A stretch of 42,022 nt of DNA from Oscillospiraceae bacterium (lineage in GTDB: Bacteria > Bacillota > Clostridia > Oscillospirales > UBA929), in contig JAIRTA010000002.1 in assembly GCA_031255175.1 (NCBI GenBank), positions 1 through 42,022 on the forward strand. The letters are read 5' to 3'. The translations under genes were made by a program, and so were the position numbers. Shown here one piece after another: positions 2-7,391 of this stretch (the stretch's first letter is position 1; the number at the start of each line of letters is the position of its first letter). The notes beneath the pieces were generated by a model. The model saw only the letters and a program-made list of their open reading frames with translations, was not told the origin of the DNA and did not search any database.

Positions 2-244
2 GTTGTGTTTACGGGCGCGAAGGACGATTTGCTCGAAAAGTACGTCCGTGTCACGGGCGCTCCGGAAGAGATCAATCCGGAACAGAGAAAACGCATCATC
101 GGCTACCGCAAGCACGGCACGGGGTTTGAGGGCCTGGTCGAAGACGCGCGCGTCCGCGAAATGCCGGTCTCTCTGCTGATCGAACCGACGACACTCGACG
201 AAATCATCACGTTTATGAATAGGGAGGCGAAGATCGATGCGTAA
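2..244 (+). CDS. ABC transporter ATP-binding protein, C-terminal fragment
   Basis: The reading frame is open from the window edge and ends at TAA 242-244, so only about 80 C-terminal residues are seen. Walker and signature motifs lie outside the window. The tail, ending LLIEPTTLDEIITFMNRE, resembles the end of ABC-2 type ATPases of the YtrB/EcsA kind. The stop overlaps the ATG of the next gene, a membrane permease, by 8 bases, which supports a translationally coupled ABC exporter operon. The substrate is unknown. The call rests mostly on this context and the typical acidic tail. Confidence 0.7.
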   Translation, partial: VVFTGAKDDLLEKYVRVTGAPEEINPEQRKRIIGYRKHGTGFEGLVEDARVREMPVSLLIEPTTLDEIITFMNREAKIDA

Positions 245-914
245 ATTGCCGGCGTTTGTCAAGCTGGACTTTGTCACCGCAAAGCCGTACCTAAAACCCG
301 TGGCTCTGCTCGTTTACGCCGCCGTCGCGGGGTTTCTCACGGTTCAGTCCGGCAACCTGCTGTCGGGAATCGGCGTCGGCCTGATGGTTGGCACGCTGAG
401 CCTCAGTTACCCGTTTGCCGTCGGCGAAAAGAGCAATATGGACGCCCTTTACATCGCCCTCGCCGTGAGCCGGCGCACCGTGGTGACAGGCCGGTATATT
501 TTTGTGCTGCTCGTGGATCTGTGCGCGGTGGTATTTTCCTGCCTGTTTTCGCTCGCGGCAAGCTTTATACTGCCGGGAATGGGTGTGAGCCTTGACACGG
601 GCGGCGCGTTCGCGGGGCTTGCGGTCCTCGCCGCGCTGTTTGTCTTGATTCAAACCATGCAGCTTCCGATATTTTTTAAGTTCGGCTACACGAAAGCGAA
701 AATAGCCAGCGTCATGCCCTTTGTCTTCATTATGGCGGTCACCGCGGCGGGTCTCGCGAGTTCTCCCGGCGGTTTGGCGGAGCGCATGTCCGCCGCCTTG
801 GCGTGGGCGGCGGACACACCCGCGGCGTATGTGCTCGCCTGTTTGGCGTTTTTGGCGTTTGTTTTCGCGTCGTATCGTCTCTCGCTCGCGTTTTATAAAA
901 GACGTGATTTTTGA
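237..914 (+). CDS. ABC-2 type transporter permease (ABC2_membrane_5-like)
   Basis: A 225-residue, very hydrophobic protein with about six predicted membrane segments, roughly at residues 18-36, 40-60, 85-110, 120-140, 155-175 and 198-218. It has a basic N-terminus (MRKLPAFVKLDF) and a basic C-terminus (FYKRRDF). The sequence around FAVGEKSNMDALYIALAVSRRTVVTGRY resembles the conserved loop of ABC2_membrane_5 permeases (the PmtB/PmtD type of peptide exporter), where a cytoplasmic loop follows TM2. It starts inside the stop region of the upstream ATPase gene, so the two subunits are likely made together. What it exports cannot be read from the sequence. If the recombinase downstream marks an element end, this operon may be element cargo. 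Confidence 0.75.
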   Translation: MRKLPAFVKLDFVTAKPYLKPVALLVYAAVAGFLTVQSGNLLSGIGVGLMVGTLSLSYPFAVGEKSNMDALYIALAVSRRTVVTGRYIFVLLVDLCAVVFSCLFSLAASFILPGMGVSLDTGGAFAGLAVLAALFVLIQTMQLPIFFKFGYTKAKIASVMPFVFIMAVTAAGLASSPGGLAERMSAALAWAADTPAAYVLACLAFLAFVFASYRLSLAFYKRRDF

Positions 915-1078: not shown

Positions 1079-1264
1079 ATGGATCGACGCGGGTACGCGC
1101 GGGTGTCTTTGCAGCGGGCGCTGAACAGGCGGATGTTGGAGACGGGGAAAATTTCTCAAAACAGGTACGCGATTGTCGAACGGGCGCTGCTTTCCCAATT
1201 GACAAGCCGGGGCGGCCGGGCTATAGTGGGAGAGGAGGAGGAGAGAGCGCCTTGGAACTGCTGA
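1079..1264 (+). CDS. Small SHOCT-like protein coupled to the recombinase
   Basis: A 61-residue protein. ATG 1079 is chosen because GGGAGG lies 9-14 bases upstream. The central part (LNRRMLETGKISQNRYAIVERALL) has the helix-turn-helix pattern of SHOCT-type modules (residues L, L..G.I, Y..., LL), in which a short pair of helices carries a G-I/K-I turn. Small proteins of this kind often precede large serine recombinases in Clostridia, where a role as accessory or directionality factor is plausible but not shown here. Its TGA overlaps the TTG start of the recombinase by 13 bases, so translation is probably coupled. Confidence 0.6.
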   Translation: MDRRGYARVSLQRALNRRMLETGKISQNRYAIVERALLSQLTSRGGRAIVGEEEERAPWNC

Positions 1265-2937
1265 AAATTCGGCGGCTGCTGGAGAGCGGCCGGAGTGTGT
1301 TTGACCTGCCGCTGCGGGTGGCCTATTACGCGCGCGTGTCCACCGACAAAGACGGCCAGCGCCATTCGCTGCACAACCAGATTGAGCACTACGACCGGTA
1401 CATTGAAGAAAACCCCAACTGGACGCCGGCCGGCCGCTATGTGGACGAGGGCGTGAGCGGCACCGGAGTCGCGAAGCGGGAGCAGTTTCTGCGCATGGTG
1501 GAGGACGCCCGCGCGGGCCGGTTCGACTTCCTGGTCACCAAGGAGATCAGCCGCTTTTCCCGCAACACGCTGGACTCCATCCGCTACACACAGGAGTTGT
1601 TGGCGCACGGTGTGGGCGTGCTCTTCGAGGCCGACAACATCTGCACCTTCTCGCCCGACGCCGAGTTGCGCCTTACGATCATGGCCAGCATCGCGCAGGA
1701 CGAGGTGCGGCGCACCGCCGAACGCGTGAAATTCGGTTTCAAACGCGCCGTCGAGCGGGGGCGCGTTTTGGGGGCCGACAACACGACGGGCTACCGCAAA
1801 AAAGACGGCGTGCTCACGGTCGACGAGGCGGGGGCGGCGCTTGTGCGCCGTGTGTTTGCGCAGTACGCGGAGGGCCGGTGCGGTCTCCGCCGGATCGCGC
1901 GGGATTTGCAGGCGGAGGGCTTTGTGGACGCAAAGGGGCGCATGTACTCCTACGCATCTCTGCATGGGATGCTGAAAAATCCGAAATACAAGGGCTACTA
2001 CTGCGGACGCAAGTACACGACGCTCGATTACCGCACGCACAAGGTGGCGCGGCTGGATGAGTCCGACTGGGTCCTGTACCGGGACGAGCGCATTCCTCCC
2101 CTGGTCTCGGAGGAACTGTGGGACAGGGCCAACGCGCTGCTGCGCGAGCGGGGCGCGCGTATGCGGGCGCACGCCGCCGCGTGCCAGTCGCGGTACCCTT
2201 ACAGCGGCAAACTGTTTTGCGGCGCGCACGGCGACGCCTTCCACCGGCGCGTGCACCGGAGCCGCCGGGGCGCGCGGGAGTGCTGGTACTGCCGGCAGTA
2301 CCGGCTGAAGGGGCGCGCGGGGTGCGACAGCCCCGCGGTTCACTCCCGGGAGCTGGACATCATCCTGGCCGACGTCTTGCACCGGGTCTTTGCCGACCGG
2401 GCGGAGGTGATCGACGGCCTGGCCGCGCTGTACGCCCAAACGCGGACGGACCGGAACCACGAGGCCGCGTGCGCCGCGCTGCGGACCCGGGAGCGTGCGC
2501 TGCGCGCGCGGCGCGACAAATTGCTGGAGCTGTATGTGGAGGGTGTCATCACAAAGCCGGAGTTTGCCGAGCGAAACGGCGAGGCCGGCGCGCAGCTTGC
2601 GGCGCTCACCGCCCGCGCGGCGGCGCTGGAGGCCGAAAGCCGGGCAGAGGCCGGGGAGGCCGGGCAGATCGAAACACTGCGCCGCGCCCTGGAGACGGAG
2701 TGGGCCGACGCCGCGCAAAACGGGTTGGGGGCCTGCTTGCTGGAGAGAGCCGTTGTCCGCAAAGCGGAGGCGCCGAACGCCGCGCGGCTGGAGCTCCGCC
2801 TTAAGACGGGCCAAACATGGCTCGCGGCGCTGGACCGAACCGGCCGCGGCCTTTCGCTCTGTGAGATCGGCATTTCACAGGCGCAGGTTTCCCGCCTTGA
2901 GAAAAACGCCTTCCAGCAGATCCGCAAAAATCTCTGA
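1252..2937 (+). CDS. Large serine recombinase with a sigma-G-like C-terminal tail
   Basis: A 561-residue site-specific recombinase. TTG 1252 is preceded by a strong GGAGGAGGAG stretch. The N-terminal resolvase domain (about 21-170) has YARVST with the nucleophile Ser30, then SRFSRNTLDSIRYTQELL and the long E-helix. A recombinase domain follows (about 175-290, YSYASLHGMLKNPKYKGYYCG). Next comes a zinc-ribbon region near 320-365 whose first pair is C-G-A-H rather than C-x-x-C, and a coiled coil near 400-490 typical of large serine integrases. The enzyme would cut and rejoin DNA at att sites. Residues 538-561, beginning EIGISQAQVSRLEK, match region 4.2 of the sporulation factor SigG and are unlike the preceding part, so the reading frame appears to run across an attachment junction into the 3' end of a host sigG gene. 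The catalytic part looks complete. Confidence 0.92.
   Translation: MELLKIRRLLESGRSVFDLPLRVAYYARVSTDKDGQRHSLHNQIEHYDRYIEENPNWTPAGRYVDEGVSGTGVAKREQFLRMVEDARAGRFDFLVTKEISRFSRNTLDSIRYTQELLAHGVGVLFEADNICTFSPDAELRLTIMASIAQDEVRRTAERVKFGFKRAVERGRVLGADNTTGYRKKDGVLTVDEAGAALVRRVFAQYAEGRCGLRRIARDLQAEGFVDAKGRMYSYASLHGMLKNPKYKGYYCGRKYTTLDYRTHKVARLDESDWVLYRDERIPPLVSEELWDRANALLRERGARMRAHAAACQSRYPYSGKLFCGAHGDAFHRRVHRSRRGARECWYCRQYRLKGRAGCDSPAVHSRELDIILADVLHRVFADRAEVIDGLAALYAQTRTDRNHEAACAALRTRERALRARRDKLLELYVEGVITKPEFAERNGEAGAQLAALTARAAALEAESRAEAGEAGQIETLRRALETEWADAAQNGLGACLLERAVVRKAEAPNAARLELRLKTGQTWLAALDRTGRGLSLCEIGISQAQVSRLEKNAFQQIRKNL
2863..2937 (+). other. 3' end of a sigG-like gene fused to the recombinase (putative attR)
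   Basis: These 25 codons encode EIGISQAQVSRLEK, then NAFQQIRKNL and a stop. Fourteen consecutive residues equal the B. subtilis SigG helix-turn-helix as I remember it, and the remainder has the same length and pattern as sigma-G C-termini. The preceding residues (TGRGLSLC) do not resemble sigma factor. The join near 2863 is therefore a candidate integration boundary, with the element to its left and sigG 3' sequence to its right. Whether a 5' sigG part lies upstream of the window is unknown. Confidence 0.6.
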
Positions 2938-2993
2938 GAGATCCAAAAATTTCCAATATCTTAAAAAACGCCACAGAAAGAGGAGGGGCCTTG

Positions 2994-4286
2994 ATGAACG
3001 GGACAAAGAAATACCGGTTTGAGACATTGCAGCTCCATGTGGGGCAGGAGGCGCCCGACCCCGCGACCGACGCGCGGGCGGTGCCGATCTACCAGACGAG
3101 TTCCTATGTGTTCAAAGACTGCGCGCAGGCCGCGGGCCGCTTTGCGCTGACGGAGGGCGGCAACATCTACACACGGCTGATGAACCCGACCTCCGACGTC
3201 TTCGAGCGCCGCATCGCGGCGCTCGAGGGAGGCGTTGGGGCGCTGGCCACGTCGTCCGGCGCGGCGGCCGCCGCGTACGCGGTCCAGAACATCGCCCGGG
3301 CGGGCGACCACATCGTGTCGGACAACGCGATCTATGGCGGTACATACAATCTGTTTGCCAACACGCTGCCCGACAGCGGGATCGAGACAACTTTTGTGGA
3401 CGGCGGCGACATCGCCCATTTTGAACAGGCCATCCGCCCCAACACAAAGGCCGTCTTCATCGAGAGCCTCGGAAACCCCAACTCGACGATCATCGACATC
3501 GGCGCGCTGGCGGAGATCGCCCACCGGCACGGGATCCCGCTGATCGTCGACAACACCTTTGCCACGCCCTACCTGCTGCGCCCCATCGAGCACGGGGCCG
3601 ACGTCGTCATCCACTCCGCGACCAAGTTCATCGGCGGGCACGGCACGTCCATCGGCGGCGTGATCGTGGACGGAGGCCGGTTTGACTGGGCGCAGAACGA
3701 CAAATTCCCCGGCCTGTCCCGGCCGAACCCGAGCTACCACGGCGTCGTGTTCACCGAGGCCGCCGGGGCCTTGGCGTATATCCTCAAAGTCCGTACGACG
3801 CTGATGAGAGATACCGGCGCGGTGCTCAGCCCCTTCCACTCCTTCCTGTTTTTGCAGGGGCTCGAAACCCTCTCTCTGCGCGTGGAGCGGCATGTGGCCA
3901 ACGCCCTGCGGGTCGTCGACTACCTCGCCGCGCACCCGAAGGTGGAGAGGGTCAACCATCCGAAGCGCCCGGACCACCGCGACCACGCGCTGTACGGGCG
4001 GTATTTCCCCAATGGCGGCGGTTCGATCTTCACCTTTGAGATCCGCGGCGGAGCGGAGACGGCCAAGCGCTTCATCGACCGGCTGACGCTCTTCTCCCTG
4101 CTGGCGAACGTGGCGGACGTGAAGTCGCTGGTCATCCACCCGGCGTCCACGACGCACTCGCAGATGAACGAGGAGGAGCTGCTGGCCTCCGGCATCAGGC
4201 CGAACACCATCCGCCTCTCCGTCGGTACGGAACACATCGACGACATCTTGGAGGACCTCGCCCAGGCGTTTGACGCCGTGGAGTGA
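2994..4286 (+). CDS. metY: O-acetylhomoserine aminocarboxypropyltransferase (O-acetylhomoserine sulfhydrylase)
   Basis: A 430-residue PLP enzyme of the Cys/Met metabolism family that makes homocysteine from O-acetylhomoserine and sulfide. ATG 2994 fits the AGGAGG at 2981-2986 better than the adjoining TTG 2991. Seen directly: the N-terminal [11 protein letters not shown] block, [16 protein letters not shown], the PLP aspartate block [11 protein letters not shown] and the Schiff-base lysine Lys211 in [11 protein letters not shown]. The C-terminal block [15 protein letters not shown], followed by [16 protein letters not shown], is typical for MetY. The length is normal. It pairs functionally with metA at 24089-25027, whose predicted product is O-acetylhomoserine. 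It lies 56 bases after the recombinase stop and converges with spoIID. Confidence 0.95.
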
Positions 4287-4298
4287 GGCGCCGCGCGG

Positions 4299-5408
4299 TC
4301 AGCGGTATGTTGTCAGCTGCGCGCCGGAATAGTAGCGGGCCAGGATCTCCTCGTAGGTGTGGCCCTGAAGCGCCAGGGCGCGGGCGCCGTATTGGCTCAT
4401 GCCGACGCCGTGGCCGTAGCCGACGGTGCGGAAGATCAGAGTTTCGCCGTCGGCCGAGACCTCAAAATTGGCCGAGCGCAGTTCGGCCGCCGCGCGCACC
4501 TGAGGGCCTGTCAGCGTCACGCCGCCCACCGGGATTGTGACGACCCCGCCCGAAGGGCTGCGCGTGGGCGTGCCGAACCAACCGGCGGGCGGGCCGTCCA
4601 GCTTTGCCTCGGGGGCCATCGCCCGCACGGCCGCGCGGAACGCGGCGGCCGGCAACTCGACGCGTCCGGCGTAGCCGGGCGCGTCCGTTTCGCCGGGGCT
4701 CTCCGCCGCCTGGAGGTAGGGGATGTCCGCGCCCCACACGTCGGCGGCGCGCTCCGTGCGGCCGCTGGAGATCGCGTGAAATACCGCCGAAATGGGCTGG
4801 GCGTCGTAGACGAGGATCTGGGCGTCGGTGTCGCGCACCGCGCGCGTCACGGCCTCGGCGGCGCGCGCCGCGCCGTCGCCCCAGCGGGCGAGGGCGTCCG
4901 CCCGCGGGAGATAGGCCTGGCAGTGCGCGTAGTTGTCACAGATGTCGGCGCCCTTGTGCGCGGCGGGCGGGCCGTTTGCCCCGCGCGCCGCGCGCTGTTT
5001 TGACACCGCGTTTGTCCGGGCCGCCACGCTCTGCGCGCGCAGGGCCTCCGTGGGGAAGTCGGCCGGCATCTCGGCCGCCAGAACGCCGAACAGGTACATA
5101 GACAGGCTCATCTCCTGCACCGTGTCTCCCACCAAGACGCGGATCTTATGCGTCTCGTCTCCGCCGCCCTCCGCCGGCGCGGCGGAGAGCGGCGCGGCCC
5201 CGGCGGACGGCCCTCCGCCGGCGGAAGGCGGGGCGTCGGGCCGGGGGAGGGGCGCGGTCAGGTTCGCGGCCGGGCCCGCCGCGGGCGGGCGCGGGTCCGG
5301 CACCAAGACGCCGTCGGCGTCCGCCGGCGCGCGCCGGCCGGCCGCGAGAAGCGGCAGCAGGAACAGTGTCAGCGTCAGCGCGGTGGTCAGCGCGAGAAAA
5401 CGTCTCAT
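4299..5408 (-). CDS. spoIID: Stage II sporulation protein D (SpoIID/LytB family)
   Basis: About 369 residues. ATG 5408 is preferred because AAGGTG lies 6-11 bases upstream; earlier in-frame TTG 5426 and ATG 5414 are possible but badly spaced. It has one N-terminal membrane anchor (residues 3-24), then a Pro/Ala/Gly-rich linker of about 60 residues, then the SpoIID domain. The domain carries GVLAAEMPADFPTEALRAQ with the catalytic-type Glu near 113, AHCQAYL, and the C-terminal GYGHGVGMSQYGA motif. SpoIID is a lytic transglycosylase that works with SpoIIP and SpoIIM during forespore engulfment. It is direct evidence that the host lineage sporulates. The 12-bp gap to metY shows no obvious terminator. 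Confidence 0.93.
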   Translation of the reverse strand: MRRFLALTTALTLTLFLLPLLAAGRRAPADADGVLVPDPRPPAAGPAANLTAPLPRPDAPPSAGGGPSAGAAPLSAAPAEGGGDETHKIRVLVGDTVQEMSLSMYLFGVLAAEMPADFPTEALRAQSVAARTNAVSKQRAARGANGPPAAHKGADICDNYAHCQAYLPRADALARWGDGAARAAEAVTRAVRDTDAQILVYDAQPISAVFHAISSGRTERAADVWGADIPYLQAAESPGETDAPGYAGRVELPAAAFRAAVRAMAPEAKLDGPPAGWFGTPTRSPSGGVVTIPVGGVTLTGPQVRAAAELRSANFEVSADGETLIFRTVGYGHGVGMSQYGARALALQGHTYEEILARYYSGAQLTTYR

Positions 5409-5456
5409 GGTCATCACCTTTTGCAAGTTTTTACAATTGATCTTTCATTATGAAGG

Positions 5457-7220: not shown

Positions 7221-7391
7221 GTGGCTTATCATATCGACGAGGAGTGCATCAGCTGCGGCGCCTGTGAGCCGGAATGCATCGTGAACTGTATCTCCGCGGG
7301 CGACAGCACGTATGTCATCGACGAGGAAGCTTGCGTAGAGTGCGGCGCCTGCGCCGAGGTGTGCCCGGTGGGCGCGCCGAAGGCAAAGTAA
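7221..7391 (+). CDS. 2[4Fe-4S] ferredoxin
   Basis: A 56-residue clostridial-type ferredoxin, a soluble electron carrier. GTG 7221 lies 4 bases after GGAGGAG. Cysteines are at 9, 12, 15 and 19 in CISCGACEPEC and at 38, 41, 44 and 48 in CVECGACAEVCPVG, enough for two [4Fe-4S] clusters. Two details differ from the classic family: the proline normally following the fourth cysteine of the first motif is Ile20, and there is an extra Cys23 close by. These could tune the potential of one cluster. It is followed after 4 bases by the methyltransferase gene, probably on the same transcript. Confidence 0.93.
   Translation: MAYHIDEECISCGACEPECIVNCISAGDSTYVIDEEACVECGACAEVCPVGAPKAK

Follow-up and report, generated by a model that had tools for sequence, protein, structure and literature searches.

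The analysed window is a stretch of 42,022 nucleotides from an Oscillospiraceae bacterium (assembly GCA_031255175.1). It is contig C158 of a 2.5 Mb genome in 159 contigs, called G000 here. Near its left end lies a gene for a large serine recombinase, and the last codons of that gene belong to a different gene, that of sigma factor G. The features, with positions counted in the window, are as follows.

237..914, plus strand: ABC-2 type permease, upstream of the recombinase (Pfam PF13346).
1079..1264, plus strand: small ORF of 61 aa that overlaps the start of the recombinase; candidate accessory or directionality factor.
1252..2937, plus strand: large serine recombinase of 561 aa with a TTG start; the body, 1252-2862, is the recombinase proper.
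2847..2862, plus strand: P arm on the right of the att site, within the recombinase gene; it pairs with the left P arm 3' of the core on contig C72.
2861..2876, plus strand: shared recombination core GTGAGATCGGCATTTC (attR), which also ends the 5' half of sigG on C72.
2863..2937, plus strand: 3' end of sigG, 24 codons and a stop, the recognition-helix part of region 4.2 (NCBIfam SigG models).
2869..2870, plus strand: predicted crossover dinucleotide GG, bases 1 and 2 of the glycine codon in EIGIS and the centre of the attP symmetry.
2991..4286, plus strand: O-acetylhomoserine sulfhydrylase gene (TIGR01326), host flank on the 3' side of sigG.
4299..5426, minus strand: spoIID (TIGR02870, E 4.3e-84), a sporulation gene in the host flank.

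The 561-aa protein has the domain order of a large serine recombinase: a Resolvase catalytic domain (PF00239, 1.4e-30), then a Recombinase domain (PF07508, 1.9e-18) and a zinc ribbon (PF13408, 1.9e-7), all from Pfam. From position 2863 it continues as EIGISQAQVSRLEKNAFQQIRKNL, which matches SigG models at positions 231-253/254 (TIGR02850, E 8.5e-5; PRK08215, E 4.6e-5). The original prediction, made from the letters of the window, had said that the last 24 codons (2863-2937) encode sigma-G region 4.2, and both the coordinates and the description hold.

An ORF of 50 to 61 aa sits at the place of the small ORF in all 7 sigG-type loci for which upstream DNA could be read. The 61-aa version (1079-1264) has no family match above the cut-off in Pfam or NCBIfam. 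Given that it overlaps the recombinase gene, it would be co-expressed with it, and cannot alone time a reaction. The permease further upstream is probably chromosome rather than cargo. On the other side, the O-acetylhomoserine sulfhydrylase gene is the neighbour at this place in the related genome G003 too.

The rest of sigG is on another contig of the same genome. The 5' half lies on the minus strand of C72 (15406-16119), and matches TIGR02850 positions 2-239 with 397 bits. Its homology to SigG ends right after EIGIS; an unrelated tail of 30 residues and a stop codon come next, and pyrH and frr are found within about 130 bases 3' of this half. The 16-mer GTGAGATCGGCATTTC is common to both junctions, at 2861-2876 of the window and at 15419-15434 of C72. 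If the two parts are joined in silico at this core, the result is a canonical SigG ending in EIGISQAQVSRLEKNAFQQIRKNL. Up to a few residues, this is also how the intact SigG of relatives ends.

The sigG tail of the recombinase is not there by chance, since the same genome holds a truncated sigG that is cut at the same codon. The earlier reading was that the recombinase frame runs through attR into the sigG 3' end, and the piece that sigG lacks is indeed found as this tail. A 5' half cut at the predicted codon and a short core at both junctions had been named as things to look for, and both are there. G000 has no complete sigG, and the truncated 5' copy is present; this is the opposite of what had been named as speaking against the idea. 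What is found is what marks a skin-type arrangement: a sporulation gene is split, its parts end at a shared core, and one part is at a recombinase. On these sequences, it is very likely that sigG is a split gene and that this recombinase rebuilds it.

Judged by eye, the DNA immediately ahead of the sigG 5' half (L001 2387-3277, on C72) encodes a short AgrD-like peptide and a response regulator of the LytTR type. Such a pair beside the split sigG of G000 is a possible quorum-sensing locus.

The cut at this site of sigG is present in 13 genomes from at least three families, with both halves in 12 of the 13. These are G000, G002-G005, G017, G200, G258, G317 and G382, plus three named assemblies: Nt197P3bin103 (L182), Agathobaculum BRZ_BH__bin93 (L199) and Butyricicoccus Coassembly_mag_397 (L220). 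In G002 only the 5' half was seen. In the congeners of our genome (G002, G003, G004 and G005) sigG breaks off at the same codon, and the recombinases with the sigG tail are 91% (G003), 91% (G004) and 68% (G005) identical to that of the window. The two orthologues at 91% carry the same tail. G017, from another genus of the same family, has a matching recombinase with a tail at 51% identity. Outside that family, G200, G317, G382 and G258 have this pair of broken ends as well, as do the three named assemblies. At the level of sequence, the initial proposal is confirmed and also turns out to be broader, with 13 genomes and further target genes.

Most of these genomes are fragmented assemblies, and many are metagenome-assembled by name, which would suit a chimera assembled from unrelated contigs. 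Genomes of at least three families, from different projects, show the same two junctions. This recurrence contradicts a chimera, which we have rejected as next to inconceivable.

One contig from a virus collection, L266 (IMGVR_UViG_3300006045_000840, classed as viral, 10.8 kb), also has a recombinase with a sigG tail, at 7249-7323. A single contig of that size is too little to call the sigG-type recombinases phage genes, and the idea was dropped.

The core is part of a larger site. In attP, two arms pair around the core, and the centre of this symmetry is the same in 6 of 6 genomes tested. Out of 23 arm positions, 18 pair in G317, 17 in G005, 16 in G382 and 14 in G000. Among 500 shuffles none did as well for the first three genomes, and 5 did for G000. 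In G003 and G017 the symmetry is weak and does not exceed that of nearly all shuffles. Because the GG at the predicted crossover is not palindromic, the reaction should be directional.

The reading frame does not shift at the core, so recombination exchanges C-termini. The SigG tail on the attL side in G317 and L220 resembles the native C-terminus of the recombinase of G258, which is unfused: it has its own stop codon and a terminator-like stretch, and the sigG end is a separate downstream frame. When the SigG tail of G317 is compared with the native end of the G258 recombinase, 0 of 2000 shuffles are as good. The attL-side tails of the lineages are alike in steps, from G000 to G005, from G005 to G017, and from G017 to G317. 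It follows from the likeness to the G258 end that attP would sit in the last codons of the recombinase gene. The comparison supports the view that in most sigG members attP is inside the recombinase gene, and that tails are swapped between recombinase and SigG.

A tree of 108 relatives of the recombinase sorts by target gene. One large clade abuts sigK (the skin type), two clades abut spoIVA, and one abuts a SASP gene. Judged by this tree, the sigG recombinase is a member of the family that holds the skin-type recombinases of this order. The 12 sigG-type recombinases need one target change in the tree, against a mean of 11.6 after shuffling, with a support of 64. A single origin of these 12 is likely, but this is not firm.

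The tail could also be a fixed fusion, in which the sigma helix serves the recombinase as an added DNA-binding module and has nothing to do with rebuilding sigG. Conservation of the tail, in the genus and in G017, is what such a module would show. But in every one of these genomes it is this very piece that sigG is missing, the recombinase of G258 is unfused, and sigK-type and spoIVA-type relatives carry the ends of other genes at the same place. The truncated sigG contradicts the fusion, which was rejected as extremely improbable.

Related recombinases also sit at other genes. The sigK-type recombinases (L100-L108, L183-L253) abut either the 3' part of sigK or the reverse complement of its 5' part; among close relatives it is as if skin-type elements sit in both orientations. 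spoIVA is split in the same manner as sigG: related recombinases run into the C-terminus of SpoIVA (PF20439, E 1.3e-36) or lie right beside it. This is seen in G006 C14 (L162, L046), G007 C15/C36 (L045) and G009 C19/C58 (L044), and also in L252, L255 and others. The spoIVA parts of G006 are direct and about 5 kb apart.

SASP, like sigG, is a gene that acts in the forespore. It is cut near GGQMVKKM in G330, G324, G045, G179 and G051 (L261-L265), and the cut gene is the only PF00269 gene found in each of these five genomes. The apparent last residues of the SASP, IEAYENGLK, stand at the end of a related recombinase (L111-L117). In G007, G017 (L076), G317, G382 and G396 (L199), moreover, sigG is cut at another place, STYAVPMI/IGEIRRY, where the recombinase is of a different kind and has 458-461 aa. 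In G017, G317, G382 and G396 this leaves sigG in three pieces.

Another explanation of the split is that a selfish element landed in sigG, that sporulation was lost or is being lost, and that the pieces are remnants. Within the genus, the dN/dS of the sigG 5' half is 0.05-0.14, somewhat above the ~0.025 of intact sigG in a sister genus, which speaks for this view. Across four congeners, the 24-codon tail has 0 nonsynonymous versus 3-13 synonymous differences. When G000 is compared with G003, about 10 nonsynonymous differences in 87 sites are seen in the 40 recombinase codons before the tail (Fisher p 0.007 against the tail). By these measures, both halves of sigG and the recombinase are under purifying selection, and are kept as protein. 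The strength of this selection argues against decay, as do the open frames in the split genomes and the presence of spoIID, spoIVA and a sigF-like gene in G000. Decay is therefore very unlikely.

How the halves would come together depends on the orientation of the sites. In four genomes the sigG parts are direct, so excision would rebuild the gene: G200 (2.9 kb), G382 (22.8 kb), G395 (9.5 kb) and G396 (9.3 kb). The 2.9-kb segment of G200 holds little more than the recombinase, a small ORF and a complete SASP gene. In two genomes the parts are inverted on one contig, and inversion would rebuild the gene: G394 (9.6 kb) and G017, where the cores are ~86 kb apart and the interval holds chromosomal genes such as pnp and prmA (read by eye).

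In G000 itself, attR and attL are on separate contigs (C158 and C72). After attL in G000, G002, G003 and G004 comes pyrH, followed by frr-uppS-cdsA-dxr-rseP as far as each contig reaches; in G005 it is proA-proB (all named by eye). The original prediction had placed an excisable cargo to the left, including the ABC exporter. The data do not support such an element: in four genomes of the genus pyrH directly follows the sigG 5' half, with more housekeeping genes behind it, and these cannot be disposable cargo.

The sites of this genome could nevertheless be direct, with a circle that leaves at sporulation, as for skin, and re-inserts after germination. The intervening elements described in the papers cited here excise, and four relatives have direct sites. 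Against this, with direct sites here the stretch from pyrH to rseP would be excised, and essential genes would be lost from the germline chromosome in the forespore; two relatives moreover have inverted sites. We regard excision in this genome as doubtful. The argument from essential genes in a spore-forming lineage favours inversion, which is somewhat the more probable geometry in this genome. Two further lines of evidence do not help much: GC skew and gene strand bias give weak and contradictory signals on the relative orientation of the sites in the genus, and a comparison of gene order among relatives whose sigG is intact, meant to reveal the ancestral neighbourhood, showed no conservation of the genes around sigG.

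No rebuilt (ON) sigG was found in a search based on the recombinases of the sigG clade; 12 of 12 sigG-type loci are assembled in the split form. This bears on a further possibility, random phase variation. Here the recombinase flips sigG both ways in growing cells, and the fraction in the right state completes sporulation, a form of bet hedging. For the yin element in yabG, integrated and excised forms are known to occur together in one population (PMC10747680). Random flipping should however produce some ON loci, unless OFF is strongly favoured, and all 12 are OFF. We consider it unlikely. A switch tied to sporulation, rather than a random one, is the reading that probably applies.

The proposed mechanism places attP within the final codons of the recombinase gene and attB in region 4.2 of sigG. 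The assembled state would be the recombined, OFF state. SigG then lacks its recognition helix and wears the native tail of the recombinase, while the recombinase wears the last 24 residues of SigG. Recombination of attL with attR would, on paper, restore both genes exactly, so that in the ON state SigG and recombinase each regain their own tail. In this genus the joining would most likely happen by inversion of the chromosomal segment between the sites. From when SigG is needed, rebuilding would most likely take place at the onset of sporulation, in or before the forespore. Reversal may follow after germination, by recombination of attP with attB. For the Clostridioides difficile skin recombinase, CD1231, this last reaction has been studied: CD1231 alone integrates while CD1234 is needed for excision, and on opposed attB and attP sites, in a DNA inversion assay in E. 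coli, CD1231 was sufficient for attP x attB (PMC5025042).

As a whole, the explanation that sigG is a split gene under the control of its own large serine recombinase, one of the skin family, is likely to be correct. SigG and SASP act in the forespore, which is the germline, so the switch must be reversible or must keep its DNA. A more specific version can be offered tentatively. It is a reversible germline switch, in which inversion of a large chromosomal segment in the forespore, with essential genes inside it, turns sigG on and sigG is turned off again after germination. Tails would be traded at each flip, and the state of the DNA would set the form of the recombinase and with it the next direction.

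Genes split by recombination are not new in sporulation. The B. subtilis skin element (in sigK), SPbeta in spsM, vfbin in spoVFB and vrin in spoVR resemble the sigG case in that a sporulation gene is split by DNA with its own serine recombinase; those genes are rebuilt by site-specific recombination. The closest match is the skin element of C. difficile (sigK; CD1231, with the directionality factor CD1234; PMC5025042). There, too, a large serine recombinase is found at a split sporulation sigma gene, with inverted arms around a short core, and skin has been tested in E. coli with both orientations of the att sites. Skin, however, acts on sigK in the mother cell, leaves as an excised circle and has a separate directionality factor, whereas here the target is sigG, in the forespore. 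The sigG case also differs in having attP within the recombinase coding sequence, and in the inverted geometry of two relatives. Of the skin analogy first drawn for this locus, the recombinase family and the split gene stand; the target, now a forespore gene, and the sites inverted in two relatives do not fit.

The gin element in gerE of Bacillus cereus (PMC5595907) likewise has a serine recombinase and no phage genes in the intervening DNA, and its core is 9 bp. It differs in being 28.6 kb long, with three recombinases and a mother-cell gene as target; the sigG segment of G200 has 2.9 kb and holds a single recombinase with one small ORF and one SASP gene. In Clostridium botulinum, yabG is split by the yin element (PMC10747680), which resembles the sigG case in its skin-type recombinase at a sporulation gene, and which has a 14-bp repeat and a mixed population of forms. 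It was found in one strain, its recombinase follows the 5' half, and it is not known to involve a tail swap.

The literature assigns sigK, spsM, spoVFB, spoVR and gerE to the mother cell. That excision stays confined to this cell, which dies, has been taken to make such rebuilding safe, and is given as the explanation of how the element persists in the spore (PMC4191935, PMC6957869). SigG acts as the sigma factor of the forespore (PMC6957869, PMC4191935). A mother-cell target is common to the published cases without being a strict requirement, and by the SigG models the target here is a different one, namely sigG. Because sigG acts in the forespore, the argument from mother-cell confinement cannot hold for it. 

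Searches of the open-licence PMC literature turned up no paper in which sigG, spoIVA or SASP is a recombination target. Likewise, we know of no report of a germline developmental rearrangement at sigG.

For this organism, recombination is apparently needed to rebuild sigG before a cell can make spores. A split sigG would be an added control point ahead of the forespore programme. Split sigG and SASP break the mother-cell rule: the DNA has to be rearranged in the very cell line from which the spore arises. This raises a testable question, which is how a developmental DNA rearrangement is reset between generations. The data point to one recombinase family whose members have become specialists for at least four different sporulation genes of gut Clostridia, and to a case where recombination would exchange the C-termini of an enzyme and its target. 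There is also a practical side to this: gene callers will misread such genomes as being without sigG, spoIVA or SASP, and hence as non-sporulating.
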